In this document: piece by piece, positions 4,982 through 54,705 of the stretch
Position numbering within the stretch: position 1 is the first letter of the stretch
Layout: each line of letters starts with the position of its first letter
From: an uncultured Opitutia bacterium
Lineage (GTDB): Bacteria > Verrucomicrobiota > Verrucomicrobiia > Opitutales > Opitutaceae
DNA: 58,579 nt
Reading direction: 5' to 3'
Assembly (NCBI GenBank): GCA_903859715.1
Contig: CAIONS010000004.1
Coordinates: 1-58,579 of the forward strand
Position numbers and translations under genes: made by a program
The notes under the pieces: model-generated
What the model saw: the letters and a program-made list of their open reading frames with translations, nothing else
Database searches by the model: none
What the model was told of the DNA's origin: nothing

Positions 4982-5062
4982 CCTTCTATCGTGGAAGTTT
5001 GTACGCCGCCGACAAGTCCTTCGCGCAGAAATATCTCCTCAAATTTTGTGTCATCCGGATAG
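4982..5062 (-). promoter_or_regulatory. Conserved leader upstream of TPR/solute-binding pair 1
   Basis: Read on the minus strand, this stretch and 7546-7626 share AAATTT, CTTGTCG, CGGCG and CTTCCACGAT in the same order and spacing, ending at the GTG start. The conservation beyond the coding region suggests a promoter or 5' leader copied with the gene pair. No clear -35/-10 pair or known riboswitch fold was recognised. Confidence 0.4.
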
Positions 5063-5107
5063 CCGATCGGAGAAGGCGCGGGCCGCCGCCGGGCAACGTG
5101 GCTGGCC

Positions 5108-10614: not shown

Positions 10615-12507
10615 TCACAAAATTCCCCGCTCGAGCCAGATGTGCTCCCCCGCGATGATCTGCTGTGCGAGATCGTAGCCGTGCTGGTCTGAGTTCTGTC
10701 CAACGCCGGTGAAATTCTGCGCGATCCGCAGGTCTGCCTGCGCCGCGAAATCATCCACCAGCGCGAACACCTTCGCCTCGGGCTCGCCGTCCTTGAGCAG
10801 CTTCTGCGCGAGCACGCAGCTGGCCGACAACGCAAAGAGGTCCGACCCGATGTCCGCCAGCCGGCCCAGCAGCACCTGCCGCTTCTCCAGCTTCGGCCCG
10901 AACTTCACCATCTGGTGGAACAGAGTGCGCGCCAGCTTCCGGCTCAACGCCGCGACCCGGTTGAAATGCCCCGCCAGGTGCGGATGCATGTCCGCCGGCG
11001 CGCCACCGTTGAACGGCAGCCACTGCGCGGGATACCACCACGAGTAAAACTTCGCCGCCGCCCACGCGCTCTTCAGCCGCTCGCCCCATGGCCGCTCCGA
11101 GTTCAGCGCCACTCCGGCGATCTTCAGGTGCGGATCGAGCGCCTCGCGCATGATGAAGAGCCGCATGATTTCCGAGGAACCCTCGAAGATCATCGTCACG
11201 CGGTTGTCGCGCATCAGTCGCTCCACCGGATGTGGCTTTTCCCCGCGCGCCTTCAGCGACGACACGTTCTCATAGCCGCGCCCACCGCGGATCTGCATTA
11301 CGTCGTCGAGACACATCCATGCCTTTTCCGTGCCCCAGAGCTTGCACATCGACGCCTCCAGGCGGATGTCCGCCTTTTTATCCCGGTCCACGATCCGCGA
11401 AGTGACGATCAGCATCGCCTCCATCGCAAACGCGTGCGCCGCGATCCGGCGGATCTTCTCCGCCACGGCCGCGTGCCGCCCGATGGGCACGCCCCATTGG
11501 ATGCGCTCGGCGCCCCACTCGCGCGCGATCGCGAGGGCCCGTTTCGACACCCCAATGCTGCAGGCAGGAATCGAGAGCCGGCCGGCGTTGAGCGTGCTCA
11601 GCGCGACCTTCAATCCACGGCCCTCGCCGCCCACGATGTTCGCCTTGGGCACGCGGACATTCGTGAAGCCGATCACCCCATTATAGAGCGCATGCAGGCC
11701 CATGAACTGGCAGCGGTGCCGGACCTCAAGGCCCGGTGAATTCGCCTCGACGATAAAGGCCGTCAGCTGCGTACGCGGCTTGCCGTCCACGAGCTTCGGC
11801 GGCGTCCGCGCGATCACGATGTAGAGCCCGGCGCGCGTGCCATTGGAACACCAGAGTTTTTCGCCGGTGATGAGATAGTCATCCCCATCCGGCTTGGCCT
11901 CGGTCGTTAGCCGCGCGGGATCGGACCCGACCCCCGGCTCGGTCAGCGCAAACGCCGACAGTTCGCCGCCCGCCACGCGCGGCAGGAATTGTTTCTTCTG
12001 CTCGGGCGTGCCGAAGAGCATGAGCGGCTGCGGCACGCCGACCGACTGATGCACCGAGACGTGCGCAAACACGTTCATGCAGTGGCTCGCGATCAGCATG
12101 CAGGCGCGGCAGTAGGTGGTCTGCGAAAATCCCAGCCCGCCATATTCGCGCGGCACCTTGATGCCGTAGGCGCCCAGGCGCGCCAGCCCCGCCATCACCT
12201 CGGCGGAAATCTCGCCGGTGCGGTCGATCAGGTCCGGATCGACCTGATCGCGGAGAAACGCGCCGAGCTCGGCAAGAAACACATCGGCCCGGGCCTTTTC
12301 CTCGGCGGCGATTTCTGTGACGGGATAAAGTTTGCCGGGCCGGAAGCGGCCCATGAACAGGTTCGCGACAAAGCTGATGTCGTCGTGGGACTCGCGGGCG
12401 GCCTCGGTGACCTGAAGGGCGGCGCGCTGCCCTTCGTTCATCTTGGACATGTCGATGACGGAGCGGTCGCCATCGGTTTTCTGGGGTGGGGTTTCAATCG
12501 CAGACAT
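10615..12507 (-). CDS. Acyl-CoA dehydrogenase, long-chain (VLCAD/ACAD9-like)
   Basis: A 630-residue FAD enzyme that would carry out the first oxidation of fatty acyl-CoA. The family signatures are visible: FALTEPGVGSDPAR in the middle domain, GEKLWCSNGTRA, RCQFMGLHALYNGVIGFTNV, and MIFEGSSEIMRLFI, whose Glu occupies the catalytic base position of the family. The length exceeds the usual 380-residue short form and fits the long form with an extra C-terminal helical domain (about residues 460-630), as in very-long-chain enzymes. It is cytoplasmic, with no adjacent beta-oxidation partner. The GC-rich tail of the C-terminus (SCVLAQKLLKDGEPEAKVF) is normal for the long form. Confidence 0.9.
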   Translation of the reverse strand: MSAIETPPQKTDGDRSVIDMSKMNEGQRAALQVTEAARESHDDISFVANLFMGRFRPGKLYPVTEIAAEEKARADVFLAELGAFLRDQVDPDLIDRTGEISAEVMAGLARLGAYGIKVPREYGGLGFSQTTYCRACMLIASHCMNVFAHVSVHQSVGVPQPLMLFGTPEQKKQFLPRVAGGELSAFALTEPGVGSDPARLTTEAKPDGDDYLITGEKLWCSNGTRAGLYIVIARTPPKLVDGKPRTQLTAFIVEANSPGLEVRHRCQFMGLHALYNGVIGFTNVRVPKANIVGGEGRGLKVALSTLNAGRLSIPACSIGVSKRALAIAREWGAERIQWGVPIGRHAAVAEKIRRIAAHAFAMEAMLIVTSRIVDRDKKADIRLEASMCKLWGTEKAWMCLDDVMQIRGGRGYENVSSLKARGEKPHPVERLMRDNRVTMIFEGSSEIMRLFIMREALDPHLKIAGVALNSERPWGERLKSAWAAAKFYSWWYPAQWLPFNGGAPADMHPHLAGHFNRVAALSRKLARTLFHQMVKFGPKLEKRQVLLGRLADIGSDLFALSASCVLAQKLLKDGEPEAKVFALVDDFAAQADLRIAQNFTGVGQNSDQHGYDLAQQIIAGEHIWLERGIL

Positions 12508-12646
12508 GGGGTGGGCGGCTCGCAGGGCCGCGGTTGATTTTCCCCACTCAACTACGGGTTTATGACACGGTCAACGACCCCGCGGCCTGCCCGCCAGTCT
12601 TCACCTTTACGACTTCGGTGAGTGAGCCGGGCTTATCGGACCGAAT

Positions 12647-12871
12647 TTTTCACCACGAAGGGCACGAAGTTCACGAAGGCCGAGCCATCGGAAGTTAGCC
12701 GCAAAGAGGCCCAAAATTTCCTGGGCTCCGGCTCGAATCCCCCGCGCGCCTATAGGCGCAACGGAGACTCCTTCGCAGCCCCAATACCCTTGTGCCTTTT
12801 TGTGGCCAACCTTCCGAGATCGGAATCCCGGGTCCGGCCTTCGTGAACTTCGTGCCCTTCGTGGTGAAACT
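12647..12871. repeat. CACGAAG inverted-pair repeat element
   Basis: TTTCACCACGAAGGGCACG at 12649 and its inverted copy ending GGTGAAAC at about 12871 enclose roughly 150 bases containing GGCGCAACGGAGACTCC-like sequence. The right arm abuts the stop codon of the next gene. The remainder of the 12508-12870 gap shows no gene. Confidence 0.7.
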
Positions 12872-15027
12872 CATTCTCGCGCCGCCGCCTCGATCGCCGC
12901 GCGCATCGTCTCCACCTGACGGATGACCGACTCGTTGTCCCCGATTTTTTTCGGATCGCGGAACGCGTCGAGCGCGGCCGCCACCGTCGCCGGCAGCTGG
13001 CCGCCATGGTGCTCGCGCAGCCAACGCAGTTTTTCGAACTCCTCGGCGCCGTCGCGCATCATCTCCCAGTGAACCGCGGAGCGCGGCCCCGGATAGAGCA
13101 GGAATTCATCGCCCGGCGGTAGGTCCCGCCGCCACGGGTTGCAGGAGTAAAGTGTCTCGTTCAGCGGATTCGCCGGCCAGGTCGAGAGCGCCCACCGGGC
13201 CATGCCGTCGTAGCCGTTCACGAACGCATAATAGCCCACCCACACCGCCTCGGCCGGCGGGCTCGTCACGAAGGTGTTCGGACGCTTCGGATCGAGGCAG
13301 ATATAGAACGTCGTGACCTTCCCCTCGCTCTTGCGCTGGGCGATGTCGCGCAGCAGGTCGTCGCCCGCATGGTCGAGGATGATCGTAAAGTCCGCCAGAT
13401 CGAGGCCGGTGTAGTGCGACGCGGTCTGGTTGCCCGCCAGCGCCGCCTTCAGCCGCGGGGCGTTGGCGTGCAGCACTTCCACCATCGCCTGCATCATCGC
13501 CGCCGGCGCTTCGTCCACGCCGATCCGCGTGCGCTCCAGCCAGCCCTTCGCCACGAGGTGCTTTTCAAAATCCTTTAAAAACGGCCCCCAGTAATCCGCA
13601 TAACTCACCGTGCCCGGCTCGCACATCGCCGTCCGCCGGTCACCCGTGGCGGCGTCGGTGTACTCCAGGCTGCCCGACCAGGTCAGCATGGAGTAGCAGT
13701 TGATCTGCTGGGAGATCCCACAGCTCATCGCGAACTCCACGTAGCGGTCGAACACCGTGTAATCGAATTTCCACGATCCGTCCGGCAGCTTCAGGTGCGT
13801 GACCATCGTGTCGTAGTCGTCGTAGTCGCGCTTGCCCCACGGTCGCGCTGTGATCGTCGCCGTGATCACCTTCTGTCCTGCGTGGGCCAGCTCCAGCAGA
13901 TACGGTCGCATCACCGCGAAATGCGCGTCGCTCCACGGCTTCACGCCGTGCCAGCGCGCGATCGACCACGGGTGCTGGAAGACATCGAGATGGTACTTCC
14001 AATCCGCCGGCGCCGGCAGCGTCGCCGGCAAAATCTCTAACGACAGCGGAAACACCTTCGGATCAGTCGCATCCGCTCGCACCGTGAGTGTGCCCGTGTA
14101 GGTGCCCGGCACCGCGTCGCGCGGTGTCTCCACCATCAGCCACACCGCCCGGTAGGAACCCGCCGGCATGTCCACGCGGTCCGCGTCGTCGAGCACGTCA
14201 CCGACCAGTTTCCCGTCCGCCAGCACGTGGCGGACAAACCGCGCGGTCGCCGCGCCCGCCGGCAACTCGTGCCCTTGCGCGTCGTGCAGCACCGACACCT
14301 CCGTCCGCAACCCCGGCCGCTCCGCCGAGGTCCAGACCACAAATTGCCCCGAGATCCGCTCGCCGCGCCACGCCGTGCCGCGCCACGACTGCGTCCCGTC
14401 GGCGAGCGGCACGTTGGCCGCACTGTACTGATGGTCGAGGTCGCCCACTGCGCCGTCCAGCACGCGCGTCGTCGGCACCGCAAAAGCCGAGAGCTTGGAA
14501 ATCATCGGGCCTTCGCCCGGTTTCGAGCTGCCCGTCACCGTCAGCCGCACCGCCCGCACGCGCATCGGCGACGGCAACACGACCACCAGCCCGCTCGCCG
14601 GGATCAGCGCGGAACCCGTGCGCTGGTCATGCAGTAGCTGCCAGTTCGTGCCGTCCACGGAGCCTTCGATGAAGAAGTGAAACACCCGCGTGTTGGGTGC
14701 GCGCAGGTTGAGGTTGAGCTGCGCGATCTCGCGCACTTCCGGGAGATCAAACCGGAGCCACGATGGCAACAGCTTCGAGGTCCAGTACATCACCGTGTCG
14801 TCATGAACATCGTGGTTATGCGCGAGGCCCGGCCGCTGCTCGTCGTCGTAGGCCGACGCCGTCACCGTCGCCCCACTCAGCACATCGCCGTAACCCGGAC
14901 GGTTCAGCAGGGGCGGCTGCGGCTCGTAGGGGAAATGCAGCGGACTGAACGGAACGGTCACGGGCGCGGCCACCGCCGCCGCCATCAACCCCAGGAACCA
15001 CACCAGACAAGAGGCCGGCTTGAGCAT
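12871..15027 (-). CDS. Exported glycoside hydrolase, GH123/DUF4091-like, with discoidin-type domain
   Basis: A 718-residue protein with a signal peptide (SCLVWFLGLMAAAVAA). Residues about 50-180 resemble an F5/8 type C (discoidin) carbohydrate-binding domain (SWLRFDLPEVREIAQLNL, HFFIEGSVDGTNWQLL). A beta-sandwich follows (about 185-335) and then a TIM-barrel-like part with the Asp-Glu pair at about 505-506 (RIGVDEAPAAM), the position used for substrate-assisted catalysis in GH123. Known GH123 enzymes are beta-N-acetylgalactosaminidases; DUF4091 relatives are less well characterised, so the substrate is an inference. The stop codon touches a repeat arm. It is probably a single-gene unit acting in the periplasm or outside. 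Confidence 0.75.
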   Translation of the reverse strand: MLKPASCLVWFLGLMAAAVAAPVTVPFSPLHFPYEPQPPLLNRPGYGDVLSGATVTASAYDDEQRPGLAHNHDVHDDTVMYWTSKLLPSWLRFDLPEVREIAQLNLNLRAPNTRVFHFFIEGSVDGTNWQLLHDQRTGSALIPASGLVVVLPSPMRVRAVRLTVTGSSKPGEGPMISKLSAFAVPTTRVLDGAVGDLDHQYSAANVPLADGTQSWRGTAWRGERISGQFVVWTSAERPGLRTEVSVLHDAQGHELPAGAATARFVRHVLADGKLVGDVLDDADRVDMPAGSYRAVWLMVETPRDAVPGTYTGTLTVRADATDPKVFPLSLEILPATLPAPADWKYHLDVFQHPWSIARWHGVKPWSDAHFAVMRPYLLELAHAGQKVITATITARPWGKRDYDDYDTMVTHLKLPDGSWKFDYTVFDRYVEFAMSCGISQQINCYSMLTWSGSLEYTDAATGDRRTAMCEPGTVSYADYWGPFLKDFEKHLVAKGWLERTRIGVDEAPAAMMQAMVEVLHANAPRLKAALAGNQTASHYTGLDLADFTIILDHAGDDLLRDIAQRKSEGKVTTFYICLDPKRPNTFVTSPPAEAVWVGYYAFVNGYDGMARWALSTWPANPLNETLYSCNPWRRDLPPGDEFLLYPGPRSAVHWEMMRDGAEEFEKLRWLREHHGGQLPATVAAALDAFRDPKKIGDNESVIRQVETMRAAIEAAARE

Positions 15028-43128: not shown

Positions 43129-43422
43129 GGAAGTGGGCGGATTCCTCGTTCGAGCCAGCCTCGGAGCCGGACGAAAGTGGGGGCGACGTTGAGGCAGCTG
43201 ACACCGGCTGTCCATCCCCGGCCGCAGGTTGAATCCTGACCAATCCGGCGAACCGGGCGCGAAACCCTGCCCATTTCTTGCGCGAAGCGCTCGCGGCCAA
43301 CGGCATCCGCCTTGATCGCCAAATCGCCCTAGCCGATCCATGCCTGCGATGATAAAGTGAGGAACCCCCGAAGCCTTGGTGAAATCGATCGATCGCCCAG
43401 CAGTCGCAGAATTGCCTTCTCC

Positions 43423-43791
43423 ATGAAAACGAACCTCCGGCTCTTTCTTCCGACGTCGGCCGCCCTCTCCCTCCTCATCGGTGTCATCGCCCTGCTGCTC
43501 GCGAACACCGCCCGGGCCGATGACACCCGGGTGATTCTCTCGGTCGAGCTGACCCCGGCAGGGGAAAAAATCGCCGCCCCTACGCCCGGGCACCCGATCT
43601 ACTATCACCCGGTCTATCTCGGCTACAAGGAGATGGGGCCCGTGCTCGATTTTTATGAGCGGAAGCCCGCCTCCGAGGACGCAATCCGCCGATCGCTCAC
43701 CGACGCCCTAGCCAGGCAGGGCTACCCCCATCATTCAGCGTCGAACTTATCGAGCGCTGTATCAAATGTGTTACAGGCGCATGGCGGGTGA
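43423..43791 (+). CDS. Exported small protein of unknown function, possibly truncated at its C-terminus
   Basis: A 122-residue protein with a signal peptide (LRLFLPTSAALSLLIGVIALLLANTARA). The mature part starts DDTRVILSVELTPAGEKIAA and includes PIYYHPVYLGYKEMGPVLDF and a helical RSLTDALARQGY. The last 25 or so residues (PHHSASNLSSAVSNVLQA) are low in complexity and unlike the rest. Because the AT-richer island begins here, the natural end of the gene may have been replaced by island sequence. This is an inference from composition. The start was placed at Met 43423 rather than 22 codons upstream. Confidence 0.5.
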   Translation: MKTNLRLFLPTSAALSLLIGVIALLLANTARADDTRVILSVELTPAGEKIAAPTPGHPIYYHPVYLGYKEMGPVLDFYERKPASEDAIRRSLTDALARQGYPHHSASNLSSAVSNVLQAHGG

Positions 43792-43893
43792 TAAGCCTTG
43801 CAAGAGACTGGCAAGAAATGAACTGTCGAGGCTTCGGTCAGACTACCCCTCTGCTTGAACACTGCGCATATTAAAACCACCGTCGTTTTGCGC

Positions 43894-44997
43894 ATGCTTT
43901 TCGGGGTGATCCTGTCAGCAGCAATGTTTAGTCCTTCGACAGTGCTCGCTAGGCCGGAAGGGGTCGTCGTTTACGGTGGCTTCGCGTTTGCCGGCAACGC
44001 AGGTGACATAGCCAGCAGCTACCCTTACTCGCTTTTGGTGGACAGAAAGGGAGGAAGCGGCGCTTCGCTGTTTGAAACGCGGCTTAGCAGCTTTTTTCAT
44101 GCGAATGCCCATTCCATTCCGGGTATCACCATTTCATTTGATACTGTCCGCAAAGGGGAGCCTTCCTGCGTCCTGGCATTGGCGCTCACCAACGAGAAGG
44201 TTCTCAAGGAAACTCTTGGAGATATTCACAAGCTGGTTGTGCAACTCGACTTCGAGCTGTTGACGCTGGATTTCGAGGGAATGCAGATTGTTTCGTCCGC
44301 GCCCATCTGCCTTGAGCTCGTCGACGATCAGAAGAGCGAGTTTTCAGAGTCTGATATCGCGGATCGAATTTTCGGCATGATCGACGGTGACCAGTCACAG
44401 CTTATAGTGGCGTTGGTATCCAAAATCGGGCGCATTAGAGCTGAAAGCAGGAATGTCTGCACCCTGCAGGTCAGCTCCGTTATGATTGGCGACAAGGCGC
44501 TGCCCTTTATGCCGGCAAGCCTAAGAGGGCGGACTGATACCTATGGGCAAACGGTCGCTCAACTTTTCGGCAGTCTCCTGAGTGCGCAGGCAGGTGTTGC
44601 ACTGCTGCCCCACGTCAAGGATGGGCTAAACTCGAAAATGTCGCTGAGGTTTGCTGACGCCACCGCTCTGCAATTCAAGATCCCTTCTCCGACATTTGCC
44701 GTCAGCCTTGATTTGAAGGGATTCAAAAAAATTCTCAAGGAGCGCACAGATGCAGAGACACTATGGATTTATGGCGCGTTCTTGGGCGTGAAGGTTTACG
44801 AACCGGAATTCAAGACTGTGTATCTGGATACTACCGCAAAGTTCGGTGTGCCAAAGATCGTCCCTGCATCACAAGCCGCTTATGATGAGTTTCCTGTTGT
44901 TTCTGACGCATTAAAAGGTGCCGTTCTAAACGCCATCGAAGCGATGCAACGCGATCCAACCACGAAGACAAAAGTCTTAAATCGATGCCAATTATGA
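43894..44997 (+). CDS. Exported protein of unknown function (island operon gene 1)
   Basis: About 367 residues. The N-terminus MLFGVILSAAMFSPSTVLARPEG is a signal peptide. A TTG at 43855 in the same frame gives an alternative start with a longer leader (MNTAHIKTTVVLR). The mature protein has mixed alpha/beta character, with blocks GVVVYGGFAFAGNAGD, VQLDFELLTLDFEGMQIVSS and TLWIYGAFLGVKVYEPEFKT. No family was recognised. The stop overlaps the next gene start as ATGA, so it is the first gene of a seven-gene operon. It is more AT-rich than the left part of the window. Confidence 0.65.
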   Translation: MLFGVILSAAMFSPSTVLARPEGVVVYGGFAFAGNAGDIASSYPYSLLVDRKGGSGASLFETRLSSFFHANAHSIPGITISFDTVRKGEPSCVLALALTNEKVLKETLGDIHKLVVQLDFELLTLDFEGMQIVSSAPICLELVDDQKSEFSESDIADRIFGMIDGDQSQLIVALVSKIGRIRAESRNVCTLQVSSVMIGDKALPFMPASLRGRTDTYGQTVAQLFGSLLSAQAGVALLPHVKDGLNSKMSLRFADATALQFKIPSPTFAVSLDLKGFKKILKERTDAETLWIYGAFLGVKVYEPEFKTVYLDTTAKFGVPKIVPASQAAYDEFPVVSDALKGAVLNAIEAMQRDPTTKTKVLNRCQL

Positions 44998-46082
44998 GAC
45001 CCAAATTTACCGCCCTGATACTGTTTTTGCTGACCGCCATGCTTTGCCATGCGCAGATCGTCAAAGTCAAAGGCAAGGGTGAGGTTGTGTATCAGGGACT
45101 GTTCCGACAGGGTTCAGCGGATGAGCGCGCCGCTATAACGGAGGCCAAGAAGAGCGCTTTGGCGCGATACGCCGCCGGACTGGAATCTGCCCGTTACGAA
45201 CTCTACAAGTCGATTGAACCCGAAGTTTTAGCGCATCTCGACGACTTCGTTGTCGATTACGTGCAAATCGACCAGCAGGTCGACCAGCAGGTCGACAAGA
45301 CCTCGAAGAGATTTTCAGTGGTTATCGAGGCTTCCGTGAACACTTCTCTCATCGAAAGCACTATTCAAAAGTCGATGAAGGCCTCGCCCACCGGGAAGGA
45401 AGAGCCGTCATACATGACGTTTGTCTTTGTCGCGCGAGAATTGGCATCGCGCAAGGTCTTCGACGCGAAAAAAACCTCGGTTGAGATTCACGAAGGGTCC
45501 CAGTCCAGCGGCGAACAACAGGCTGCGTCGGCGGATGGTCAGGCCCTCGATAGCTCACTGAAATCAGGCTCAGTTACAAAGCAGACGGTCGGAGGAAACA
45601 CGGAACTCAAGGCGGATGCACTATCCTACCGGGTATCAACCTCGACCGAAGTGGACAACGCAGTTAACGCCATCCTAACCAAGGCAAAATATGAGACGGT
45701 AGATCCTACCGACGCAGGGCTGGATATTGAGCGCTTTAAGAATGATTTCAGCAGTGGCACAGACATAACTCCTGCAACCCGGACCGCAGCGATCAAGGCC
45801 CTTCGCGAGAAGGAAATCTCCTATCTGGCTATAGCCAATATGGACGTTGGTTTGCCGGAGAGGGACGATGTTTCTGGCATGATCAGGGTCTACGTCACAG
45901 TGACTGCCAAGGTGACGAACTTGACCGCCAAATTTCCCAGGACCGTAGCGTCCATTGCTGGAAGACCATTTGCGGGACTTGGCCCCAATCCCCAGGTCGC
46001 CAGGCAGAATGCCCTCAACGAAGCCGCTACCCAGTCTGCTTCGGAGCTAACCGACGAACTCCGTTCCAAGAATATCCACTAA
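44994..46082 (+). CDS. Exported protein of unknown function with FlgT/LPP20-like N-terminus (island operon gene 2)
   Basis: About 362 residues with a signal peptide (RPKFTALILFLLTAMLCHA). The mature start VKVKGKGEVVYQGLFRQGSA and following EAKKSALARYAAG resemble the N-terminal fold of FlgT and LPP20-like envelope proteins. A second region (SYRVSTSTEVDNAVNAILTK; EKEISYLAIANMDVGLPERD) resembles TolB/CsgG-type mixed alpha/beta folds. A near-perfect local repeat encodes DQQVDQQVDK. The start at ATG 44994 gives an ATGA overlap with the previous stop; an ATG 9 bases earlier is possible. The role is unknown, presumably in the periplasm. Confidence 0.65.
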   Translation: MRPKFTALILFLLTAMLCHAQIVKVKGKGEVVYQGLFRQGSADERAAITEAKKSALARYAAGLESARYELYKSIEPEVLAHLDDFVVDYVQIDQQVDQQVDKTSKRFSVVIEASVNTSLIESTIQKSMKASPTGKEEPSYMTFVFVARELASRKVFDAKKTSVEIHEGSQSSGEQQAASADGQALDSSLKSGSVTKQTVGGNTELKADALSYRVSTSTEVDNAVNAILTKAKYETVDPTDAGLDIERFKNDFSSGTDITPATRTAAIKALREKEISYLAIANMDVGLPERDDVSGMIRVYVTVTAKVTNLTAKFPRTVASIAGRPFAGLGPNPQVARQNALNEAATQSASELTDELRSKNIH

Positions 46083-46116
46083 GATTACACCTCAATAACC
46101 CCACCGTCCGAAACCT

Positions 46117-46818
46117 ATGAAAACACCTAAGATTCTCGTCCTCTCCGCGCTCACCTTGGTAGCAACGTTGCCTGTGGCCAGAGCGGGATTTGGTGACCTC
46201 CTCAAACAAGATTCAGCACCGGCCGTCGCCGCCCCGAGCGTAGGAGATTTCTCCAATCTACTGGATTCTACGACTGGAAATGTCCTCGCGGCCAGGATCC
46301 AGTTTCTCGACGCCCAGGCGGACTTGTCCAGCGCGCTGGGGCTGAGCACAGACTCCATTGTCAAAGCATCCGAAGGCCTGCGAGCAATGGAGGGGACCTC
46401 TTCCAGCTCCAGCGAGAAACTTAAAGCTATCAAGGACTCCAACAAAAAAACGGAGAACGCGAAAAAGGAATTCTCCGAGGCCCTCGCAAAATCACAAACT
46501 CTGTCCGAGGAATCGAAAGCCAAATTCGCAAAGGGCACGGTAAAGTTTCTGCAGGGAGTTATTCTGGAAAAACAGCAGATCGTAACCATCACGAGCTTGG
46601 TCGCCCAAGGGAAAGCCCTTGTTAGTTCGGCTGGAATTATGGGGAAAGTTAAAGCTATGGGTATGGTAAAGCCGGCGTCAGAGATGGCCTTTCTCGTGCC
46701 TGGTGACGTGAAAGAAGGATTCACCACGCTTGGGCAGATTACCTCCTTTGCTAATAAACAGAACATAACTGTGCCGAGCCAGGACGAGATCAACAAGGAC
46801 CTAGGCGACCAGGCTTGA
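46117..46818 (+). CDS. Exported helical protein of unknown function (island operon gene 3)
   Basis: A 233-residue protein with signal peptide (PKILVLSALTLVATLPVARA). The rest is predicted helical and polar, with a Lys/Glu-rich, coiled-coil-like region (SNKKTENAKKEFSEALAKSQ), then GTVKFLQGVILEKQQIVTIT and a C-terminal VPSQDEINKDLGDQA. No cysteine is left in the mature part. It begins 34 bases after the previous stop. I do not recognise the family; similar short periplasmic proteins are often chaperones or adaptors for a membrane complex, which is a guess. Confidence 0.6.
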   Translation: MKTPKILVLSALTLVATLPVARAGFGDLLKQDSAPAVAAPSVGDFSNLLDSTTGNVLAARIQFLDAQADLSSALGLSTDSIVKASEGLRAMEGTSSSSSEKLKAIKDSNKKTENAKKEFSEALAKSQTLSEESKAKFAKGTVKFLQGVILEKQQIVTITSLVAQGKALVSSAGIMGKVKAMGMVKPASEMAFLVPGDVKEGFTTLGQITSFANKQNITVPSQDEINKDLGDQA

Positions 46819-46910
46819 AAAGGAAGTAGCAAGGAAGACCTAACATTCGCGATTGAAGACCAGTTGTATCCAGAAAGTGTTCAGAAACATGCCGCCAAGC
46901 GGACACAGAA

Positions 46911-47915
46911 ATGAAGACGCTAAGTAACTCCCTAGTTAAGCTGCTTCTGGCGACTGTTTGGGTTACCTGCTCAACCCCGTCCTTTGGAGATGAGCCCAAG
47001 GCTAAACCTGTCGATATCCAGTCTGCGCCCTCATCGGAACCCCGCCAGAAGATGGTCGTCGTTGAGCCGATCAAGATAAGCGAGGACGCTGGTGTAAGCG
47101 GAACTCTTAGCGCTCGAGTGTTGGTAAACCTCCACAAGAACCTCGTTACTGATTTTGTGAAGTCCCGGAAGTTTGCCGTTCTCGATCGCGAATTCGGCGA
47201 CCAAATAAATGCGGAAAAACACAGTCGTGATACCGACCGGTCAGAAGCGAGCCGAACCGTCAAACTAGGCGGTGAAACAACGGCCGACTACTTGATCGCA
47301 TCCGAGGTCAAACGGTTTACCAACTCTCATTTCGACCAGGAAATGCAACTGAGCGGCCGGAAAATACCGCGCTTTGCTTATGATCTTAGCGTAGCGGTTC
47401 AAGTTATCGATGTCGCCACTCGCAGAGTCGTATTTGCCGATTCTTTTGACGAAAAAGCGTCGGGAATCCTACAGGCTGACCCTTATGGATTCGATCTGTG
47501 GGCTGATAATGCCACTGCTGCAGTCGCAACCAAGGTATGCCAATCCGTCCTTGAATTGATTTACCCGCTAAAGGTTGCCTCGGTATTGGAAAACGGGGAA
47601 GTCGTGCTGAACGAAGGCGCTGGTCGAGTAGTCGAGGGCGATGTATATGAGGTTTATGCGCTCGGTAAAGTTATGACTGATCCCGATTCCGGGGTCGAAA
47701 TTGGTCGTGAGGAGACCCTTCAAACGAAGATAAAAGTTTCCCGTGTCCTGCCAAAAGCGTCTTACGCCCAAGCCCTTTTGCCAACCCCAGCTGCTATTCG
47801 CCCGGGTTCCATTTGTCGCAAAGTTAAGGCCCCGAAATTAGTTCCAGAGACTAAACCCGAGGATTCGACCGAAGCCGAAAAGACCAAAAAAGTTAAAGTC
47901 GACGACGATCTCTAA
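46911..47915 (+). CDS. Exported CsgG/FlgT-like protein (island operon gene 4)
   Basis: A 334-residue protein with a signal peptide (LLLATVWVTCSTPSFGDEP). Residues about 45-220 resemble the CsgG/HfaB/TolB N-terminal fold: KMVVVEPIKISED, LVNLHKNLVTDFVKSRKFAV, and VAVQVIDVATRRVVFADSFD. Residues about 235-300 resemble the C-terminal domain of FlgT (GRVVEGDVYEVYALGKVMTD, then PDSGVEIGREE). The Cys of the leader is not in a canonical lipobox (VTC), so it may not be a lipoprotein as CsgG is. CsgG forms an outer-membrane secretion pore; whether this protein can form one is not shown. The C-terminal 30 residues are charged (EAEKTKKVKVDDDL). Confidence 0.7.
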   Translation: MKTLSNSLVKLLLATVWVTCSTPSFGDEPKAKPVDIQSAPSSEPRQKMVVVEPIKISEDAGVSGTLSARVLVNLHKNLVTDFVKSRKFAVLDREFGDQINAEKHSRDTDRSEASRTVKLGGETTADYLIASEVKRFTNSHFDQEMQLSGRKIPRFAYDLSVAVQVIDVATRRVVFADSFDEKASGILQADPYGFDLWADNATAAVATKVCQSVLELIYPLKVASVLENGEVVLNEGAGRVVEGDVYEVYALGKVMTDPDSGVEIGREETLQTKIKVSRVLPKASYAQALLPTPAAIRPGSICRKVKAPKLVPETKPEDSTEAEKTKKVKVDDDL

Positions 47916-47935
47916 CCATTATCGAAAGAGTTTAT

Positions 47936-49231
47936 ATGGCCGTTCTAAACGTAATCCGGTGTGACCTTCCGCAAAGCGAATATCTCGTTTGGAAATGGGC
48001 ACCTCCAGAGGGGTCCAGTGGCAGAGAAACCCAAATCCGGTGGGGCAGTAGCCTGCGCGTTCGTTCCGGCGAGACGGCGGCTTTCTTTTACTCCCGCGGA
48101 GGAGGTGAACCGGCCATTGATCTCATAGACGGACCCAAGGACCTGATTCTGGAAACCAAGAATTTTCCGGTTATATCGAACTTGATCGGATTAGCCTATG
48201 GTGGTGATTCCCCGTTCCAAGCAGAGCTCTTCTTCATCAACCGAGGGCAGGCGACGCAATTGCTTTGGGGAATCCCGTGGTTCGATGCGTTTGACCCAAG
48301 GTTTCCGGATTTCCCTGTGCCCATTGCTTTGAACGGAGCGATTACCATTCAGATCGAAGACGTAGCCAAATTTATCGGTATCCAGCGGCTGGAAGACTTC
48401 GATCCAGGCCAACTTACCCAGCAGATCCGACCCCAGCTGGCTTCTGCAATTAAGGCTAACGTGGTAACACTCGCAGCGGCCCGCGGCATCCCATTGGTGC
48501 AAATCGGTGGGAAGACCGACGAAATTGCAGCCGCCTTGATGCCGACTATAGTTAAGGTAATTGGACAATTCGGCGTTGCGGTCAGAAATTTCGCCGTCGA
48601 AGGGATCGAATTAGACAAGGAGAGCGAAGGGTTCGACAGCCTCATGTCCGTCACCAAGGACCTCCAAACTAGGCGCATGCAGACTCAGCTCGATGTTGAG
48701 CTGAAGATCTTGGAGCAAAGTGCCGAGGCAGCTAGGCTGCAGGTCCAAACGCAGTATTTACCCGCCCATCAAGTAAACTTGCAGGCCGACGTAGCGAAAA
48801 CTGCAGCCGAGAGCATTGGCATGATTGGTTCTGGCGGAGGTGGAGACGGAGGAGGAGGTGGTGGTGGACTCGGGGGTTTGGGCGCCGCTGCCATGATGAT
48901 CGGCGTCGGATTGCCCGTCGGTAGTGCCCTTGGGCAAAATCTTGCAGGCAATGTTGCGGGACTTGCGGGAGCAGGCGCACCCCGACCTCCTGCACCTCCG
49001 GTCTCAACCAGCCTGCAATTGCATGTGATGCAAAACGGTCAGGCCCTTGGAATTCTGCCGATTGAGGAAGTTAACAGGCGAATTGCTATAGGCTCATTAT
49101 TCCCAGCGGACATCGGATGGCACCAAGGACTTGCCGCGTGGCAGCCCTTGAGCGCAATTCAGGGCATTGTCTTTCCGCCGCCACCACCACCACCGCCGCC
49201 GCCGCCGCCAAGTCCTAGCGGTGGCAGGTAA
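47936..49231 (+). CDS. YdjI-like SPFH (Band_7_1) protein with GYF_2-like C-terminal domain (island operon gene 5)
   Basis: A 431-residue protein without signal peptide. Residues 1 to about 240 match the SPFH-like family that includes YdjI: YLVWKWAPP, WGSSLRVRSGETAAFFYSRG, LETKNFPVISNLIGLAYGGD, SPFQAELFFINRG and LNGAITIQIEDVAKF. A helical part follows, then a Gly-rich linker (about 297-312, GGGGDGGGGGGGLGGLG), a hydrophobic stretch, a GYF_2-like domain (about 347-395: LHVMQNGQALGILPIEEVNR, IGWHQGLAAW) and a Pro tract of twelve residues. YdjI relatives organise membrane-stress complexes with PspA and zinc-ribbon proteins. Here the zinc ribbon is encoded separately by the next gene. Membrane-scaffold role is inferred. 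Confidence 0.8.
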   Translation: MAVLNVIRCDLPQSEYLVWKWAPPEGSSGRETQIRWGSSLRVRSGETAAFFYSRGGGEPAIDLIDGPKDLILETKNFPVISNLIGLAYGGDSPFQAELFFINRGQATQLLWGIPWFDAFDPRFPDFPVPIALNGAITIQIEDVAKFIGIQRLEDFDPGQLTQQIRPQLASAIKANVVTLAAARGIPLVQIGGKTDEIAAALMPTIVKVIGQFGVAVRNFAVEGIELDKESEGFDSLMSVTKDLQTRRMQTQLDVELKILEQSAEAARLQVQTQYLPAHQVNLQADVAKTAAESIGMIGSGGGGDGGGGGGGLGGLGAAAMMIGVGLPVGSALGQNLAGNVAGLAGAGAPRPPAPPVSTSLQLHVMQNGQALGILPIEEVNRRIAIGSLFPADIGWHQGLAAWQPLSAIQGIVFPPPPPPPPPPPPSPSGGR

Positions 49232-49254
49232 GTGACAACCGGGAACCCACGGTC

Positions 49255-49518
49255 ATGGACGATCAAAACAAGCCCATCCCCCCTGGTCAGGCGCCATCGC
49301 CAGGGCAACCCAACGCCCCCCTGACGGCGATTTCAAAAGTTGCCAGGGAAGTATTGGCCAACTTTTCAACGCCCGGAAGCATGGAAGCCGCGGCAGTTAC
49401 CAGAGGCCAAAGACTTTGTCCGCAATGCCACGCTTTGGTCCGAGAAAACGCCAGCTTCTGCCAGAATTGCGGGGCCAAGGTTCTGCCTGCGGTTAATAAA
49501 GAAGCCCGAGGTTCCTGA
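49255..49518 (+). CDS. Small double-CxxC zinc-ribbon protein (island operon gene 6)
   Basis: An 87-residue protein. The C-terminal CPQCHALVRENASFCQNCGA is a typical zinc ribbon with two CxxC knuckles; the N-terminal half is Pro-rich and unstructured (NKPIPPGQAPSPGQP). In the YdjI-type family such a ribbon is usually fused to the SPFH domain, so this may be the detached ribbon of the preceding gene, 23 bases upstream. It is cytoplasmic. Confidence 0.7.
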   Translation: MDDQNKPIPPGQAPSPGQPNAPLTAISKVAREVLANFSTPGSMEAAAVTRGQRLCPQCHALVRENASFCQNCGAKVLPAVNKEARGS

Positions 49519-49557
49519 CTTAAAGAACCGAAACTCGTAGCCTTACACCCCACTCAA

Positions 49558-50583
49558 ATGAAATGCCCCAGCTGCTCAGCGACTATCGGTGCCTTGGATA
49601 AAATTTGCCCTTATTGCGGTGCCGAGGTTCCCACCGCTCCCCTTTCCGGAACATTTGCCCCGCCCGAGCAGGTGCCCGCCTCGGGCCTTACGGCTTTGTC
49701 GATTTGTGACCGCATTCAAGAGGACCTTGCCGCTTTGGCGCTCAAACCCCCGACTTCCCGGGCACGATCGTTCTTCGTGGGCCTAATTACACCGCCAACT
49801 TTCGGTTTGGCCTTCATCGTCAGCAAAGCACTCGAGGTCTTTGGCAGACAGGGTGAATCACCAAATCGGTTGGTTCTGTCCATCGATGAAAACATCCGAA
49901 AGGGCAAAACATCCTACAAAAACGACTCGGCCGTGGCTACCTCACTGAAAAAGTTTGAGGCCGAACTTGCTGGTTATCATGTCCGGAGGCATTCGTCGCA
50001 TAGAGCCTTCTGGCTGGGATTTGCCATAGGCGTAGTGGCAATTGTAGGGGTGCTCTTCGCTGCGGGTTTATCGTCGCGACAGAGTCACCACCGTAAATCG
50101 GAAAATCTACAGTCCACAATCAGCTTGGTCCAGGCAGGCGAGCTTTCCGGGGCCGTGGCGATTGTGGCAAGATTACCTGAAGACGAGCGCCGCGAATTGG
50201 CAGAGCGAGACTCCTTCGCGAGAATAGCGGTCGATATCCTAGACGGCCGAGACAAGGAGGCGTTGGAGCTGTCGAAAGGCATTCCTGACCTCGTCGCACG
50301 CGCGAAGGCGGAAAATTTTATAGCTCTGAGAATGCTCGATCGTGCTTTGCAATCCGCTGACTATGCCGGTGCCTTGGATGCTGCAAGGTGGGTCACTCCT
50401 GAAGAAGAGAAAGCAAAGGCTGAAGACAGGGTTAGGGCGAGTCAGGCGACTGCACTTATTTCGGCCGACAAGATGGATAAAGCCAAGGAGATCATGGCAA
50501 ACATTCACAGTGAATCTACCCGATCGCAGCTTGAGCGCCTGATCGAATCGAAACTACCCAATCCCAAGCTAAATGGTTTTTAA
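49558..50583 (+). CDS. Zinc-ribbon, single-span membrane protein with helical repeats (island operon gene 7)
   Basis: A 341-residue protein. Residues 1-22 are a zinc ribbon (CPSCSATIG...CPYCGAEV). A helical cytoplasmic region (about 45-145) precedes one membrane span (FWLGFAIGVVAIVGVLFAAG, about 150-169). The outside part (about 175-341) is made of TPR-like helices (SLVQAGELSGAVAIVARLPE, ALQSADYAGALDAARWV). The layout resembles YdjG of the Bacillus YdjFGHI membrane-stress complex: a ribbon inside, one span, an extracytoplasmic domain. It follows the SPFH and zinc-ribbon genes after 39 bases and is the last gene of the operon. Confidence 0.7.
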   Translation: MKCPSCSATIGALDKICPYCGAEVPTAPLSGTFAPPEQVPASGLTALSICDRIQEDLAALALKPPTSRARSFFVGLITPPTFGLAFIVSKALEVFGRQGESPNRLVLSIDENIRKGKTSYKNDSAVATSLKKFEAELAGYHVRRHSSHRAFWLGFAIGVVAIVGVLFAAGLSSRQSHHRKSENLQSTISLVQAGELSGAVAIVARLPEDERRELAERDSFARIAVDILDGRDKEALELSKGIPDLVARAKAENFIALRMLDRALQSADYAGALDAARWVTPEEEKAKAEDRVRASQATALISADKMDKAKEIMANIHSESTRSQLERLIESKLPNPKLNGF

Positions 50584-50785: not shown

Positions 50786-51616
50786 TCATGGAAACGAGAG
50801 ACTATATTTTGCCCGCCTTCGTTTCCTTGCCGGATGATGCGCGGTTTCCTTGGCTTCATAGGCGATTTGGTGAATGGGATCCCGGACTTGCTCTCCGGCT
50901 TTTGGGAAAGATTCGTTTCCTTGACGGTCCTTGAAGGGCCACGGGTGGCGCTGTTTGTACCATTCGACAAACTCTCTAGCCCAGGTGACGGGATTTCTTT
51001 CATTCTCCGGAAGCAAAAGACGCTGCCTCGCCTCAGGGTGAACCGCCACCGCGCCGTTATTCTCGATTAAGGCGCTAAGGACATCCCAATTGCCATCGAG
51101 AGAGGTTACCCGCTTATCTGCATTTGGAATGTTGTTCGCTGGAAAGTACACGGACTTAAGAAACCCGTCCATCGCGAGCCGTAGCCAGTCGAAATCGGTT
51201 TTGCCGGTAGATTTCATCCTCGCCTTCGCGTCCCTCAGATTCGCCAGACCGCGACGCATTTGGTCGCCTCGAGCTTCAACATTTCGCGGCACATCTCGGA
51301 GGGCTGACGGCAGACTCAAATCGAACAACGCTGGGAATACGTCCCGCACCCGGGCGACAGCCTCTACTGCTCGCCGGTGGTTTTCATCGAAGTAGAGCGC
51401 CTGGATGAACGCGCAAGCCTGGACGGCAACACTAACAAGATTGTTTACTGCTGCCGCTTGGCTTTTTGAACGTAAGAGGGCGCTCTCCTTTAACTTGGTG
51501 AGTAAGGCGTCCGACTCCACGCGGAGTTTTTGAACACTTATTGCACACGCCTCTTCATTGCGGCGCAGAAAATCCGCGAAGTTGGCATCGTCTTCCAGAT
51601 TCGGCTTTTTGGTCAC
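50786..51616 (-). CDS. Protein of unknown function coupled to the island recombinase
   Basis: A 276-residue, probably cytoplasmic, mostly helical and charged protein. Its ATG overlaps the stop of the upstream recombinase gene as ATGA (51613-51616), so the two are translated together. Visible blocks are NLEDDANFADFLRRNEEACA, SVAVQACAFIQALYFDENHR, PSALRDVPRNVEARGDQMRR, and PVTWAREFVEWYKQRHPWPF. The basic tail (PARKRRRAKYSLSF) might bind DNA. No helix-turn-helix or excisionase pattern is evident and it is larger than known excisionases. It converges on the seven-gene operon with about 200 bases between them, where I see nothing. Confidence 0.65.
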   Translation of the reverse strand: MTKKPNLEDDANFADFLRRNEEACAISVQKLRVESDALLTKLKESALLRSKSQAAAVNNLVSVAVQACAFIQALYFDENHRRAVEAVARVRDVFPALFDLSLPSALRDVPRNVEARGDQMRRGLANLRDAKARMKSTGKTDFDWLRLAMDGFLKSVYFPANNIPNADKRVTSLDGNWDVLSALIENNGAVAVHPEARQRLLLPENERNPVTWAREFVEWYKQRHPWPFKDRQGNESFPKAGEQVRDPIHQIAYEAKETAHHPARKRRRAKYSLSFP

Positions 51617-52881
51617 GCGAACCTCACTACTTGCTCTTTGTTCGCTGGCGGGGTAATTCCGAAATAAGCTTCGGCCTGTGCCTTCGTAGCCAGAGCGCGG
51701 TAGTGGTCAAAAAGCACTTGATCGCTGGCGCGATGGCCCAAAAGGCGGGACGTTTCAAGGGGGTTGCCGTGAAGCGCGTAGTGATAGGAGCCGAACGAAT
51801 GCCGCATGGCGTTCGCTTCCCATGTCGTGAACTTAGCGAATTTGAGCAGTTTTTTGAACCGCTTCTGGTGATCGTTGAAATGCAGGTTCGAGGTCACCGG
51901 CCCCTTGAGTTCGGGAAGTAGGGAGAGCCACCGGACAGCGTTCCCGGGAATCTCTACGTGACGGATGCGCCGCTTCTTGGCGATCTTCGCGCCAATGGTG
52001 ACCAATGCGGGCGTTTCGGAGAGTTTAACAGCTTCCCAGTCGAGGCGCTTGAGTTCTTCCGTCCTGAGCCCGCAGAACAGGGCAAGTGTGACCGCCCCGA
52101 GGAGTTCAAGCTCAGGATGGGCGAGGGCGGCAGTCAGCAAAGACTCTGCCTGCGTCGGCGTTAGAATACTTGGTTCGTTCGCCTCCCCTCCGCCTCCACA
52201 AAGCTCCTTCCGGTCAATGTCCGTCAGCTCCTCGATGGGCGAGAAGGCGATGTAGCGCCGCTGCGTCGCCAGCTTGAAAACCTCCCCGAGCACCGCGAGG
52301 TAGTTTTGATTTGAGCGAACGCCAAGCCTGAGCGTCCCGAGCCAGCTTTTGATTTCCGCCCCTGACACCTCGGAGGCAATCCGGCCTTCAAATGCCGTGG
52401 CAAAGCGCTCGGCACGGAGCCGGAAGTCCCGGTAACTCCGCTCCCGTAGGTCGCCGCGTTCAAACCGCTGCTCCTTACTCGTGACCAATTCTTTGACGAC
52501 CTCGCGCACGGTCTTGGTTCGGCCCTCGGGCCGGAGATGCTTCACGGCAAAGCGAACGGCCTCCGTGATCGAAACGCCGTGCTTCCGTAGTTCTGGCAGA
52601 TTGGCGGCAACCTCCCGGCGCTCATCGTCGGAGAGGGCGAAAAAGTCAGTCCCTTGCTTCCGGCAGCCGGCAAACGTGTCGTCAGCCCATTTCTCGGCGT
52701 CCTGACGGTCTTTGAACTGGCGACGCTCGCGAAGTTTCCCGGTGAGCTTGGACGGAATGGTGACGAGGTAGGACGCGCCGAACGCGCCGCCCCCGGTGGC
52801 GTTGAGCACTTCACGGATGCGGATGCCCGATTTCTTCGGGTAAATCCACGACTTGAGAGCGCTCGCCGTCGTCTCTGCCAT
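51613..52881 (-). CDS. Tyrosine recombinase (site-specific integrase) next to tmRNA
   Basis: A 422-residue integrase. An N-terminal arm-binding/core-binding region (about 1-225, ATGGGAFGASYLVTIPSKLT; ERSYRDFRLRAERFATAFEG) precedes the catalytic domain. The residues seen are Arg of LFCGLRTEELKRLDW, NAMRHSFGSYHYA (Arg-His of the second box, with Asn where the first His is common), LLGHRASD, and the nucleophile Tyr of FDHYRALAT near 405. The start lies 98 bases from the 3' end of tmRNA, the usual position for an integrase that inserts at ssrA. It is inferred to have moved the block of genes at about 43.8-52.9 kb. Confidence 0.9.
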   Translation of the reverse strand: MAETTASALKSWIYPKKSGIRIREVLNATGGGAFGASYLVTIPSKLTGKLRERRQFKDRQDAEKWADDTFAGCRKQGTDFFALSDDERREVAANLPELRKHGVSITEAVRFAVKHLRPEGRTKTVREVVKELVTSKEQRFERGDLRERSYRDFRLRAERFATAFEGRIASEVSGAEIKSWLGTLRLGVRSNQNYLAVLGEVFKLATQRRYIAFSPIEELTDIDRKELCGGGGEANEPSILTPTQAESLLTAALAHPELELLGAVTLALFCGLRTEELKRLDWEAVKLSETPALVTIGAKIAKKRRIRHVEIPGNAVRWLSLLPELKGPVTSNLHFNDHQKRFKKLLKFAKFTTWEANAMRHSFGSYHYALHGNPLETSRLLGHRASDQVLFDHYRALATKAQAEAYFGITPPANKEQVVRFA

Positions 52882-52979: not shown

Positions 52980-53010
52980 TGGTGGAGGTGGCGGGAGTTG
53001 AACCCGCGTC
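52980..53010 (-). other. Probable attachment site at the tmRNA 3' end
   Basis: The 3' end of tmRNA (TCAACTCCCGCCACCTCCACCA is 22 bases; the core is the T-arm and acceptor at 52980-53010) directly faces the integrase. This is the usual attB of ssrA integrases. The matching second copy that should mark the far end of the island was not found by eye near 43.7 kb. Confidence 0.5.
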
Positions 53011-53334
53011 CCCCTGGCCTTTGCACACCGCGTCTACCATGCATAGCGTAAGTTTAATCTCACCAAGGCCAAGCGATCACGCGCGCTAAGACCCCGGCCA
53101 GTCCCCGGATGAAGATACGGCGCGCACACCGCGGACGGCTCCGCGCGCTATTCCTGCTGTCGTCGTTCACTCCGGCTAGCAGGTGTCGCCGGGCAAACGT
53201 GGGAGCTTAATTAAGCAGCCAGTAGCATTTCTTCGTTGTTGCCTATTATTTTTTTGAAGGAGGATTTACGAGAAACCTTCATTCTCGGCAGGCAGCGGCG
53301 CACTCCAACCAAGGGTAGAATCCGGAACACCCCC
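52980..53334 (-). ncRNA. ssrA: tmRNA (transfer-messenger RNA)
   Basis: On the minus strand the gene starts GGGGGTGTTCCGGATTC at 53334 and ends CGCCACCTCCACCA at 52980; the ends pair as an acceptor stem with one G-U pair. GCCGAGAATGAAGGTTTCTC near 53280 corresponds to the conserved region after the 5' arm. The tag reading frame (53243 to 53211) encodes GNNEEMLLAA followed by TAA, so it resumes with a Gly codon. The 3' T-arm GACGCGGGTTCAACTCCCGC is intact. It rescues stalled ribosomes with SmpB. A -10-like TGATACT lies 11 bases upstream of the start; no good -35 was seen. Confidence 0.95.
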
Positions 53335-53463
53335 AAAGCGGAAAAGTATCAGGTGAAAAGGAGTCGGTACGAAACGATTGGTGCGATCCAATCAAAGAAC
53401 AGGAGGGGCACCATGCGCCGATCCCCCCGGATTACAAGCCCGTGAACAAGCCCTGAAATCCCT

Positions 53464-53541
53464 ATGTGGAACTCAGGAATACTGGAACGGAGGCCCAAGG
53501 TTTGGTCCAAAGATCGTTTCCTGATTTCCTGAGTTCCACAT
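53464..53541. repeat. Perfect 16-base inverted repeat with 46-base loop
   Basis: ATGTGGAACTCAGGAA at 53464-53479 is exactly repeated in reverse at 53526-53541 (TTCCTGAGTTCCACAT). It sits in the 276-base gap between the tmRNA start and the amidohydrolase gene. No gene lies in the loop. It may be another repeat family with only one copy in this window. Confidence 0.75.
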
Positions 53542-53610
53542 AAAACAGTTCCCTTCCGTCCCCCATTTCGGCTTTGCCCCTTCCCTTCGCCGCAGCACGC
53601 TGGCCGCATC

Positions 53611-54516: not shown

Positions 54517-54659
54517 TTGGCCACAAAGAGGCGCAAAAAGTAGCCCACGACGGAAACGCTCGACCACTCTGGCGCCAAAGTTCGTAGCTGGCGTTACTCT
54601 CTGAATCCGCCTGCTTTTTTTGCGCCTTCTTGCGCCTCTTCGCGGCCAACCTTCCGCCC

Positions 54660-54705
54660 CGGCTCGGCCTTCGTGCGCTTCGCGACCTTCGTGGTTAAAT
54701 AACCG
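54660..54705. repeat. Single arm of the CACGAAG family
   Basis: GGCTCGGCCTTCGTGCGCTT followed by CGCGACCTTCGTGGTTAAAT resembles the right arms at 12829-12871 and 15306-15346. The opposite arm was not found in this 198-base gap, although CCACAAAGAGGCGCAAAAAG (about 54521) and TTTTTTTGCGCCTTCTTGCG (about 54612) form another inverted pair here. Confidence 0.6.

Follow-up and report, generated by a model that had tools for sequence, protein, structure and literature searches.

The question raised by positions 43894 to 50583 of a 58,579-nucleotide contig from an uncultured Opitutia bacterium (GenBank assembly GCA_903859715.1, contig CAIONS010000004.1; the whole stretch is hereafter called the window) is whether the seven genes encoded there, all on one strand and close to a transfer-messenger RNA (tmRNA, ssrA) gene, belong to one envelope system or to more than one. 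A first-pass annotation, made from the sequence alone, had taken them as a single new unit. The reading favoured here, which is given a probability of about 0.6, is that two gene sets share one foreign island beside ssrA: a mobile, flagellum-independent envelope complex encoded by the first four genes (set A, P1–P4) and a YdjGHI-like set built around an SPFH protein, encoded by the last three (set B, P5–P7). The seven genes are the following:

P1, 43894–44997, + strand: exported protein (N-terminal hydrophobic stretch), its N-terminal half likened, by a low-confidence model, to the TolB-N/LptE/FlgT/CsgG envelope superfamily
P2, 44985–46082, + strand: exported protein, its C-domain (residues 139–365) modelled like TolB-N/PelC/CsgG/FlgT, its N-domain possibly FlgT_N/LPP20-like (weak)
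P3, 46117–46818, + strand: exported protein with no known relatives
P4, 46911–47915, + strand: CsgG/FlgT_M-like domain followed by a TsaP-like C-terminal part
P5, 47936–49231, + strand: SPFH protein (Band_7_1) bearing a GYF_2-like region and ending in polyproline; outside the conserved module
P6, 49255–49518, + strand: small free zinc-ribbon protein with a proline-rich N-terminus; outside the conserved module
P7, 49558–50583, + strand: zinc ribbon and single membrane span; C-terminal region without an assigned fold; outside the conserved module

Genes P1–P4 form a conserved four-gene unit, which scattered members of three phyla inherit as a whole. Beyond the window they occur together at 14 further loci in Verrucomicrobiota, Desulfobacteraceae and Burkholderiales; the 15 loci, each counted once, comprise ten from the class of the window genome, one each from Caballeronia, Cupriavidus and Pandoraea, and two from Desulfobacteraceae (Thermodesulfobacteriota). 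P2 was matched in 4 of 288 genomes of the phylum (own genome included), in 1 of 12 of the genus (the own genome only), in 10 of 384 of the class when a four-sequence profile was used, and in 3 of the 72,556 records of a plasmid collection (one Caballeronia, two Cupriavidus metallidurans, the carriers including CH34, a strain in wide laboratory use); P1 matches the same three plasmid records. A 15-sequence profile of P1 reached the same ten class genomes as P2; sequences of these ten genomes are part of the profile, so that ten matches were expected, and the informative result is that no eleventh genome carries P1 alone. Scanning genome contigs for two short peptide patterns, which is uninformative on absence, returned five loci: two of Desulfobacteraceae, two near-identical ones of Pandoraea and one Opitutales contig that had already been found.

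The linkage of the four genes is tight. According to blastp comparison of the open reading frames (ORFs) of at least 80 amino acids (aa) at E 1e-4, P1, P2 and P4 are present in 15 of the 15 loci and P3 in 14; the other linked families span at most four loci each. At the locus lacking a sequence-linked P3 (L058), a short exported ORF (8724–9362), unreached by the P3 profile, occupies the P3 position, and at three loci lying outside the profiles (L059, L061 and L062, from Desulfobacteraceae and Pandoraea) all four proteins were recovered with E values of at most 4.4e-29. The P1, P2 and P4 trees alike set the same six Verrucomicrobiota loci apart from the other nine with starred support, placement within the nine being unsure, and gene order follows this split: it is P3-P1-P2-P4 in six of six loci of the one group and P1-P2-P3-P4 in eight of nine of the other (counting the positional P3 of L058 and the loci with inserted genes, one gene in L053 and two in L057), the exception being Caballeronia, in which P4 comes first.

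The last three genes do not share this distribution. Searches by phmmer with P5, P6 and P7 of the window, which as single-protein queries have low sensitivity for P6 and P7, gave no match at any of the 14 other module loci. Three of these loci hold little DNA past P4 (L053, 2097 bases; L054, 1875; L056, 1679); of the corresponding genomes, two (G455 and G427) have no Band_7_1 protein, and G364 has one on a different contig. Altogether, Band_7_1 is absent from 7 of the 10 class genomes that carry the module. Conversely, P5 has relatives in genomes without P1–P4: P5 is matched in 99 of the 288 phylum genomes, many via the SPFH part and some via the GYF tail only, and P2 in 4 of 288 (own genome included in both counts). 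The first-pass annotation had named separate occurrence of the two sets in other genomes as the finding under which its seven-gene unit falls; since P1–P4 are found without detectable P5–P7 and relatives of P5 without P1–P4, the claim is given up. Its description of the layout was accurate. The seven genes are co-oriented, and gaps of 34, 92, 20, 23 and 39 nucleotides (nt) follow one another from P2 to P7; at the P1/P2 junction (ATGCCAATTATGA) the reported ATGA overlap is obtained if P2 starts at 44994, a start at 44985 giving an overlap of 13 nt, and TTG at 43855 is a possible upstream start of P1. These same features are what recommends the view that all seven products form one cross-envelope complex, with SPFH and zinc-ribbon proteins as an inner-membrane sensor or scaffold and the exported proteins in the periplasm: the genes share a strand, the gaps from P4 to P7 are at most 39 nt, the G+C content at third codon positions (GC3) is similar throughout, and no + strand terminator-like site was found in the intergenic spaces of the seven genes (13 sites overall, against 9.3 ± 3.6 in shuffles). 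The distribution of set B and of Band_7_1 makes it clearly unlikely.

What the products of set A may be is best seen from P4. The hydropathy of P1–P4 reveals in each a hydrophobic N-terminal stretch and nothing comparable further on, and P4 of the window matches the Pfam family CsgG at 20.0 bits, just below the cut-off of 20.8, with LpoB and FlgT_M weaker; both results support the earlier description of four exported proteins, one of them CsgG/FlgT-like. Export of P1–P4, like the membrane span of P7, is predicted from hydropathy. Among the 11 of 15 P4 family members scanned against Pfam, CsgG lies above the cut-off in five and just below it in two (the window included), and is unmatched in four; the low scores of LPP20 (20.9 bits) and FlgT_M (19.7 bits) are all below cut-off, the weak LPP20 matches falling in the N-terminal parts of two members. 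When a profile of seven P4 sequences was compared with solved structures, its matches included CsgG chains (E 6e-6) and a portion of TsaP (E 4e-6; 3e-4 for the best stretch alone). The likeness to FlgT lies in the succession of parts in P4 relatives, i.e. weak LPP20 or FlgT_N, then CsgG/FlgT_M, then a TsaP-like part, a layout which we take to be that of FlgT itself, whose C-domain is presumably of the TsaP-like kind; the difference is that FlgT_C is unmatched and that the window P4 lacks the N-terminal part. Indeed, P4 of the window and of L053 are some 70–140 residues shorter than the other members, with this part missing. Lipobox-like motifs are found in 4 of the 15 P4 proteins, the window P4 having none. 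Second P4-like genes lie near the module at two loci (L055, 2635–3813; L057, 14996–15871), the one in L055 with a weak FlgT_N match (19.1 bits, below cut-off).

For P1–P3 no Pfam or NCBIfam match near cut-off was obtained, and searches of the Protein Data Bank (PDB) with their sequences gave no meaningful match. The structural model of P2 has a mean predicted local distance difference test score (pLDDT) of 67.7, most of both domains lying at 65–88; its best Foldseek match has E 0.0038, and Lpp20 is among the matches at E 0.019. The model aligns with CT253 (Z 9.4, root-mean-square deviation (rmsd) 4.2 over 147 residues), PelC (Z 8.7, rmsd 3.3, 131 residues), TolB (Z 8.7, rmsd 3.0, 118 residues) and CsgG (Z 7.8, rmsd 4.0, 134 residues); a further likeness to FlgT is the alignment with structure 3w1e (Z 8.3, rmsd 10.9 over 218 residues, covering P2 residues 28–365), and FlgT_N appears weakly (15.6 bits) in one P2 relative. 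A FlgH label for a P2 relative was set aside (17.2 bits vs 280). The alignments suggest, with moderate confidence, a fold of the TolB-N/CsgG/FlgT superfamily for P2; the N-terminal half of P1, poorly modelled, aligns with the same envelope superfamily at Z 8–9, and the same fold is proposed for P1 with low confidence. The resemblance to the TolB N-domain, PelC, LptE and PqiC thus concerns the fold of the P2 C-domain and, weakly, the P1 N-half; P1 and P2 differ from these proteins in gene context, and their sequences are not meaningfully matched among solved structures. A lipobox-like motif occurs in 1 of 15 P2 proteins and a lipobox-like N-terminus in 7 of 15 P3 proteins, in neither case in the window. 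A weak Pfam label of P3 as HTH_36 was discarded.

Because three proteins of the CsgG/FlgT type are accompanied by a fourth, exported partner, P1–P4 are read as encoding a periplasmic or outer-membrane-tethered complex. The four products would be exported and would assemble in the periplasm or at the outer membrane, P4, P2 and probably P1 contributing subunits of the TolB-N/CsgG/FlgT superfamily and P3 acting as an exported partner that may be lipid-anchored in some carriers. CsgG, PelC and FlgT form rings or multimers, and structure 5t10, among the fold matches of P2, is titled a PelC dodecamer; by oligomerising, subunits of this type could build a ring, or a scaffold, beneath the outer membrane, for which the TsaP-like tail of P4 might be the anchoring part, and the whole might serve an envelope structure as scaffold or gate, independently of flagella. 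In set B, the soluble SPFH protein would be recruited to the inner membrane by its zinc-ribbon partners. The products of the two sets may be in contact with each other, and a functional link between P1–P4 and P5–P7 within this one genome is possible, given the shared strand, the short gaps and the similar composition. A more specific version, which can be put forward tentatively, makes P1–P4 a stand-alone mobile relative of the H-ring or of CsgG, that is, a ring-forming periplasmic complex without flagellum or curli in at least three phyla, perhaps placed around an envelope-spanning structure. In diderm envelopes, proteins of the FlgT, CsgG and TolB-N types make up rings, channels and anchors, and flagella, curli and Tol-Pal are the main settings in which they have been described; a compact, unnamed set, inherited as a block across phyla and carried by genomes lacking FlgI, suggests that an envelope structure has been overlooked.

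The independence from flagella is proposed because FlgI is absent from 5 of the 10 class carriers, including the window genome (G000, 97.8% complete); the test covered these ten, carriers outside the class being left out, and P1–P4 thus appear not to be a flagellar part in general. This sets them apart from the H-ring of Vibrio motors, which is described as being built by FlgT with FlgO and FlgP (PMC6375700). The sole flagellar label among the scanned neighbours is FapA in L058, at 15.0 vs 31 bits.

The CsgG domain of the P4 family also invites comparison with curli. P1–P4 might be a curli-like or other CsgG secretion channel for a surface protein or polymer, with a cargo that is variable or encoded elsewhere; the above-cut-off CsgG matches in 5 of 11 P4 members would fit, and so would the presence, among the best folds for P2, of PelC, a part of the Pel exopolysaccharide exporter. 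Against this, none of 965 ORFs of at least 80 aa (15 sources, the window and the 14 loci) carries three QxGxxN motifs within 100 residues, no cargo gene is common to the loci, and the alignment of the P4 profile to CsgG ends at residue 175 of the solved chain, which we take to precede the second membrane hairpin; P4 further differs from curli CsgG in its extra N- and C-terminal parts and in its three further exported partners. A channel of this kind is accordingly rather unlikely, and since clustered QxGxxN repeats were not found, P1–P4 do not appear to be curli as known. CsgE and CsgF were unmatched among the selected module neighbours scanned with Pfam, no search having been aimed at these two proteins. 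The CsgG Pfam model is reported to match many non-curli proteins as well, likely paralogs (PMC3521004), a statement which suits a non-curli reading of P1–P4.

Some P4 relatives also resemble LpoB, which activates a penicillin-binding protein: LpoB scores above its cut-off of 22.3 bits in L062 (27.2) and L052 (22.5) and just below it in L059 (21.9) and L038 (21.6). That P1–P4 regulate cell-wall synthesis from outside in a like manner is nevertheless very improbable, since CsgG outscores LpoB in these proteins (except in L062, where they tie), the curated NCBIfam LpoB model reaches 17 bits vs a cut-off of 110, and P1–P3 would be left unexplained.

Several results weigh against the two-set reading with its envelope complex. 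The CsgG match of the window P4 falls just short of its cut-off and 4 of 11 scanned members have none; no Pfam FlgT_C match was seen in the P4 family; P2 has no Foldseek match at E 0.001 or better, and its model aligns with ribosome hibernation factors as well (Z up to 8.1), which indicates a broad fold family; P1 is poorly modelled (pLDDT 46.8). Many envelope lipoproteins have the superfamily fold, and no function follows from sharing it. The remaining 5 of the 10 carriers tested do have FlgI, the search for relatives of the recombinases gave nothing near 12 of the 15 loci, and the tree program warns of long branches meeting (for P1, G408; for P4, the window among others). Finally, composition does not part set A from set B, and one-way genes with short gaps may mean one transcript and one job.

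The novelty of P1–P4 was judged from the literature searched, most subscription papers being outside its reach, and from the lack of near-cut-off Pfam or NCBIfam matches for P1–P3; it is on these two grounds that the module is called undescribed. No title naming such a four-gene module was met in these searches, nor in those combining CsgG with Verrucomicrobia, with Cupriavidus metallidurans or with FlgT, operon or curli-like; papers pairing any two of CsgG, FlgT and LPP20 were flagellar only, none involving CsgG, and pairing 'CsgG family protein' or 'CsgG-like' with Akkermansia gave nothing on Akkermansia. The initial statement that no described system has this set agrees with what the literature and library searches turned up.

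As to set B, P5 matches Band_7_1 at 87.9 bits (cut-off 24) and, less well, GYF_2 at 22.2 bits (cut-off 25.8), and P6, which has no membrane span by hydropathy, matches Zn_Ribbon_1 at 31.3 bits (cut-off 25), so that an SPFH protein with a GYF_2-like tail followed by a free zinc ribbon had been correctly recognised. In P7, first described as a zinc-ribbon, one-span, TPR-like protein, the span (a single strong one from near residue 155, hydropathy 2.77) and the ribbons (CxxC...CxxC N-terminus, Pfam matches below cut-off) are upheld, and the TPR label is weak (TPR_19 at E 0.72 only). P7 was matched in 3 of the 288 phylum genomes, namely the own genome and two weak partial cases (E 4.5e-4 and 8e-4), and has no relatives in the plasmid collection. 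A PDB sequence match of P5 to an antibody fragment, over a glycine-rich stretch, was taken as chance.

The best reading of P5–P7, by analogy, is a YdjGHI-like SPFH set that is not part of the conserved module. The likeness to PspA-YdjGHI of Bacillus subtilis is that an SPFH protein is encoded with small partner genes, one of them for a membrane protein; the differences are that Pfam gives no PspA match among the seven proteins, that P5 bears a GYF_2-like part, and that gene order is not the same, P6 and P7 being likened to YdjG and YdjH by analogy. YdjG is said to bear a zinc ribbon. The word 'zinc' is absent from the main text of PMC8581546, in which YdjI is described as needing the membrane proteins YdjG and YdjH of its operon for its membrane localisation. 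Within the literature on SPFH proteins with zinc ribbons or GYF parts, PMC7159879 describes other systems.

Among 29 SPFH relatives with a locus, 14 have zinc-ribbon motifs, 11 a GYF-like tail (by eye) and 4 neither; in the window the GYF-like part is on P5 and the zinc ribbon is encoded by the next gene, P6. Downstream of zinc-ribbon-tailed SPFH genes at 10 of the 29 loci (L002, L009, L011, L012, L015, L016, L022, L024, L027 and L029), at a distance of 3–46 nt, lies an ORF of 224–232 aa, possibly an unnamed partner of Band_7_1 proteins; two of these ORFs were scanned with Pfam and had no match near cut-off. The P6 N-terminus (49255–49330) is proline-rich with a PPG motif, and a polyproline run (49180–49228) follows the GYF_2-like region of P5. 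Proline-rich peptides are bound by GYF domains, and P5 and P6 might bind each other through the GYF_2-like region and a proline-rich stretch.

The seven genes are a foreign stretch, because their GC3 (0.52–0.62, with 0.52–0.62 in set A and 0.56–0.57 in set B) is below that of the flanks (0.81 and 0.84 in one gene per side) and an integrase gene and a tmRNA gene adjoin them:

276-aa ORF, 50786–51616, − strand: shares 4 nt with the start of the integrase gene; unmatched in Pfam; possibly a companion of the integrase
Tyrosine integrase, 51613–52881, − strand: Phage_integrase, 36.8 bits (cut-off 27.1); just past the tmRNA 3' end
tmRNA (ssrA), 52980–53334, − strand: 146.1 bits; presumed attachment gene of the island

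Per 500 bases, G+C content is 0.49–0.58 over 44–52 kb vs 0.63–0.71 over 40–43.5 kb, and mostly above 0.6 past 53.5 kb. The proposed ssrA-integrated island is thus borne out in its foreign composition and in the integrase beside the tmRNA gene; its att repeat was not found, there being no direct repeat of at least 14 nt joining the tmRNA end to elsewhere in the window and, in an ungapped search of 42.5–44.2 kb, a 9-nt match at best, so that the island ends are only inferred. The left end may be marked by a gene (43357–43791) that looks truncated: it has matches in 19 of 41 family genomes searched (own genome included), and all 29 matches listed from outside the window end at query residues 100–109 of 121. 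No clear case of an empty tmRNA site was seen in the genus: G060 and G603 have the tmRNA gene and the relative of the left flank (42.1–43.1 kb) on separate contigs, and in G606 the contig ends at the start of its match, within the tmRNA. A relative of the 43357–43791 gene in G610 (L086, 3424–4449; 51% over 72 residues) is separated from the tmRNA gene of that genome by about 2.2 kb. The segments 53463–53546 and 54615–54699 recur on many contigs of the own genome and of same-genus genomes, as dispersed repeat families of the genus.

Recombinase genes were found near the module in 3 of the 15 loci, namely the window, L039 and L051. The L039 recombinase (381 aa) scores 21.0 bits with Phage_integrase, below the cut-off of 27.1, and matches the window integrase by phmmer at E 1.3e-13; the 276-aa ORF has no relative near the other module loci. 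In L051, on plasmid pSBC2-3 of Caballeronia sp. SBC2, the module is flanked by an AIM24 family gene on one side and four integrase-annotated genes on the other, with IS701 and IS91 family transposases within the same 25 kb, another mobile setting. A phage or virus origin of P2 was rejected as unsupported: there was no match in phages, and none of 19 pattern matches in viral contigs was confirmed.

A foreign island with patchily distributed genes could carry the operon as anti-phage defence cargo, one of the roles first suggested. The PADLOC library, which dates from 2023 and holds systems described by then, gave only matches of 11.9–14 bits (E 0.0056 or weaker) when the seven proteins encoded here and ten of their relatives were compared with it, the module neighbours being outside the scan, and no enzyme domain above cut-off was detected by Pfam among the seven; a defence role is, on these results, scarcely credible.

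The neighbours of the module differ between loci, and some of them recur. A family of 448–454 aa lies beside it at three loci (L038, 11260–12606; L059, 13139–14503; L061, 11272–12621), the L059 member matching DUF6844 at 49.4 bits (cut-off 27), a family on which the literature search found no paper, and a family of small ORFs is linked at four module loci. Near the module of L040 (G096), a GYF_2 protein is encoded at 12430–13554 (35.4 bits), and the product of 4714–6759 resembles a serine/threonine kinase, a label read from its sequence.

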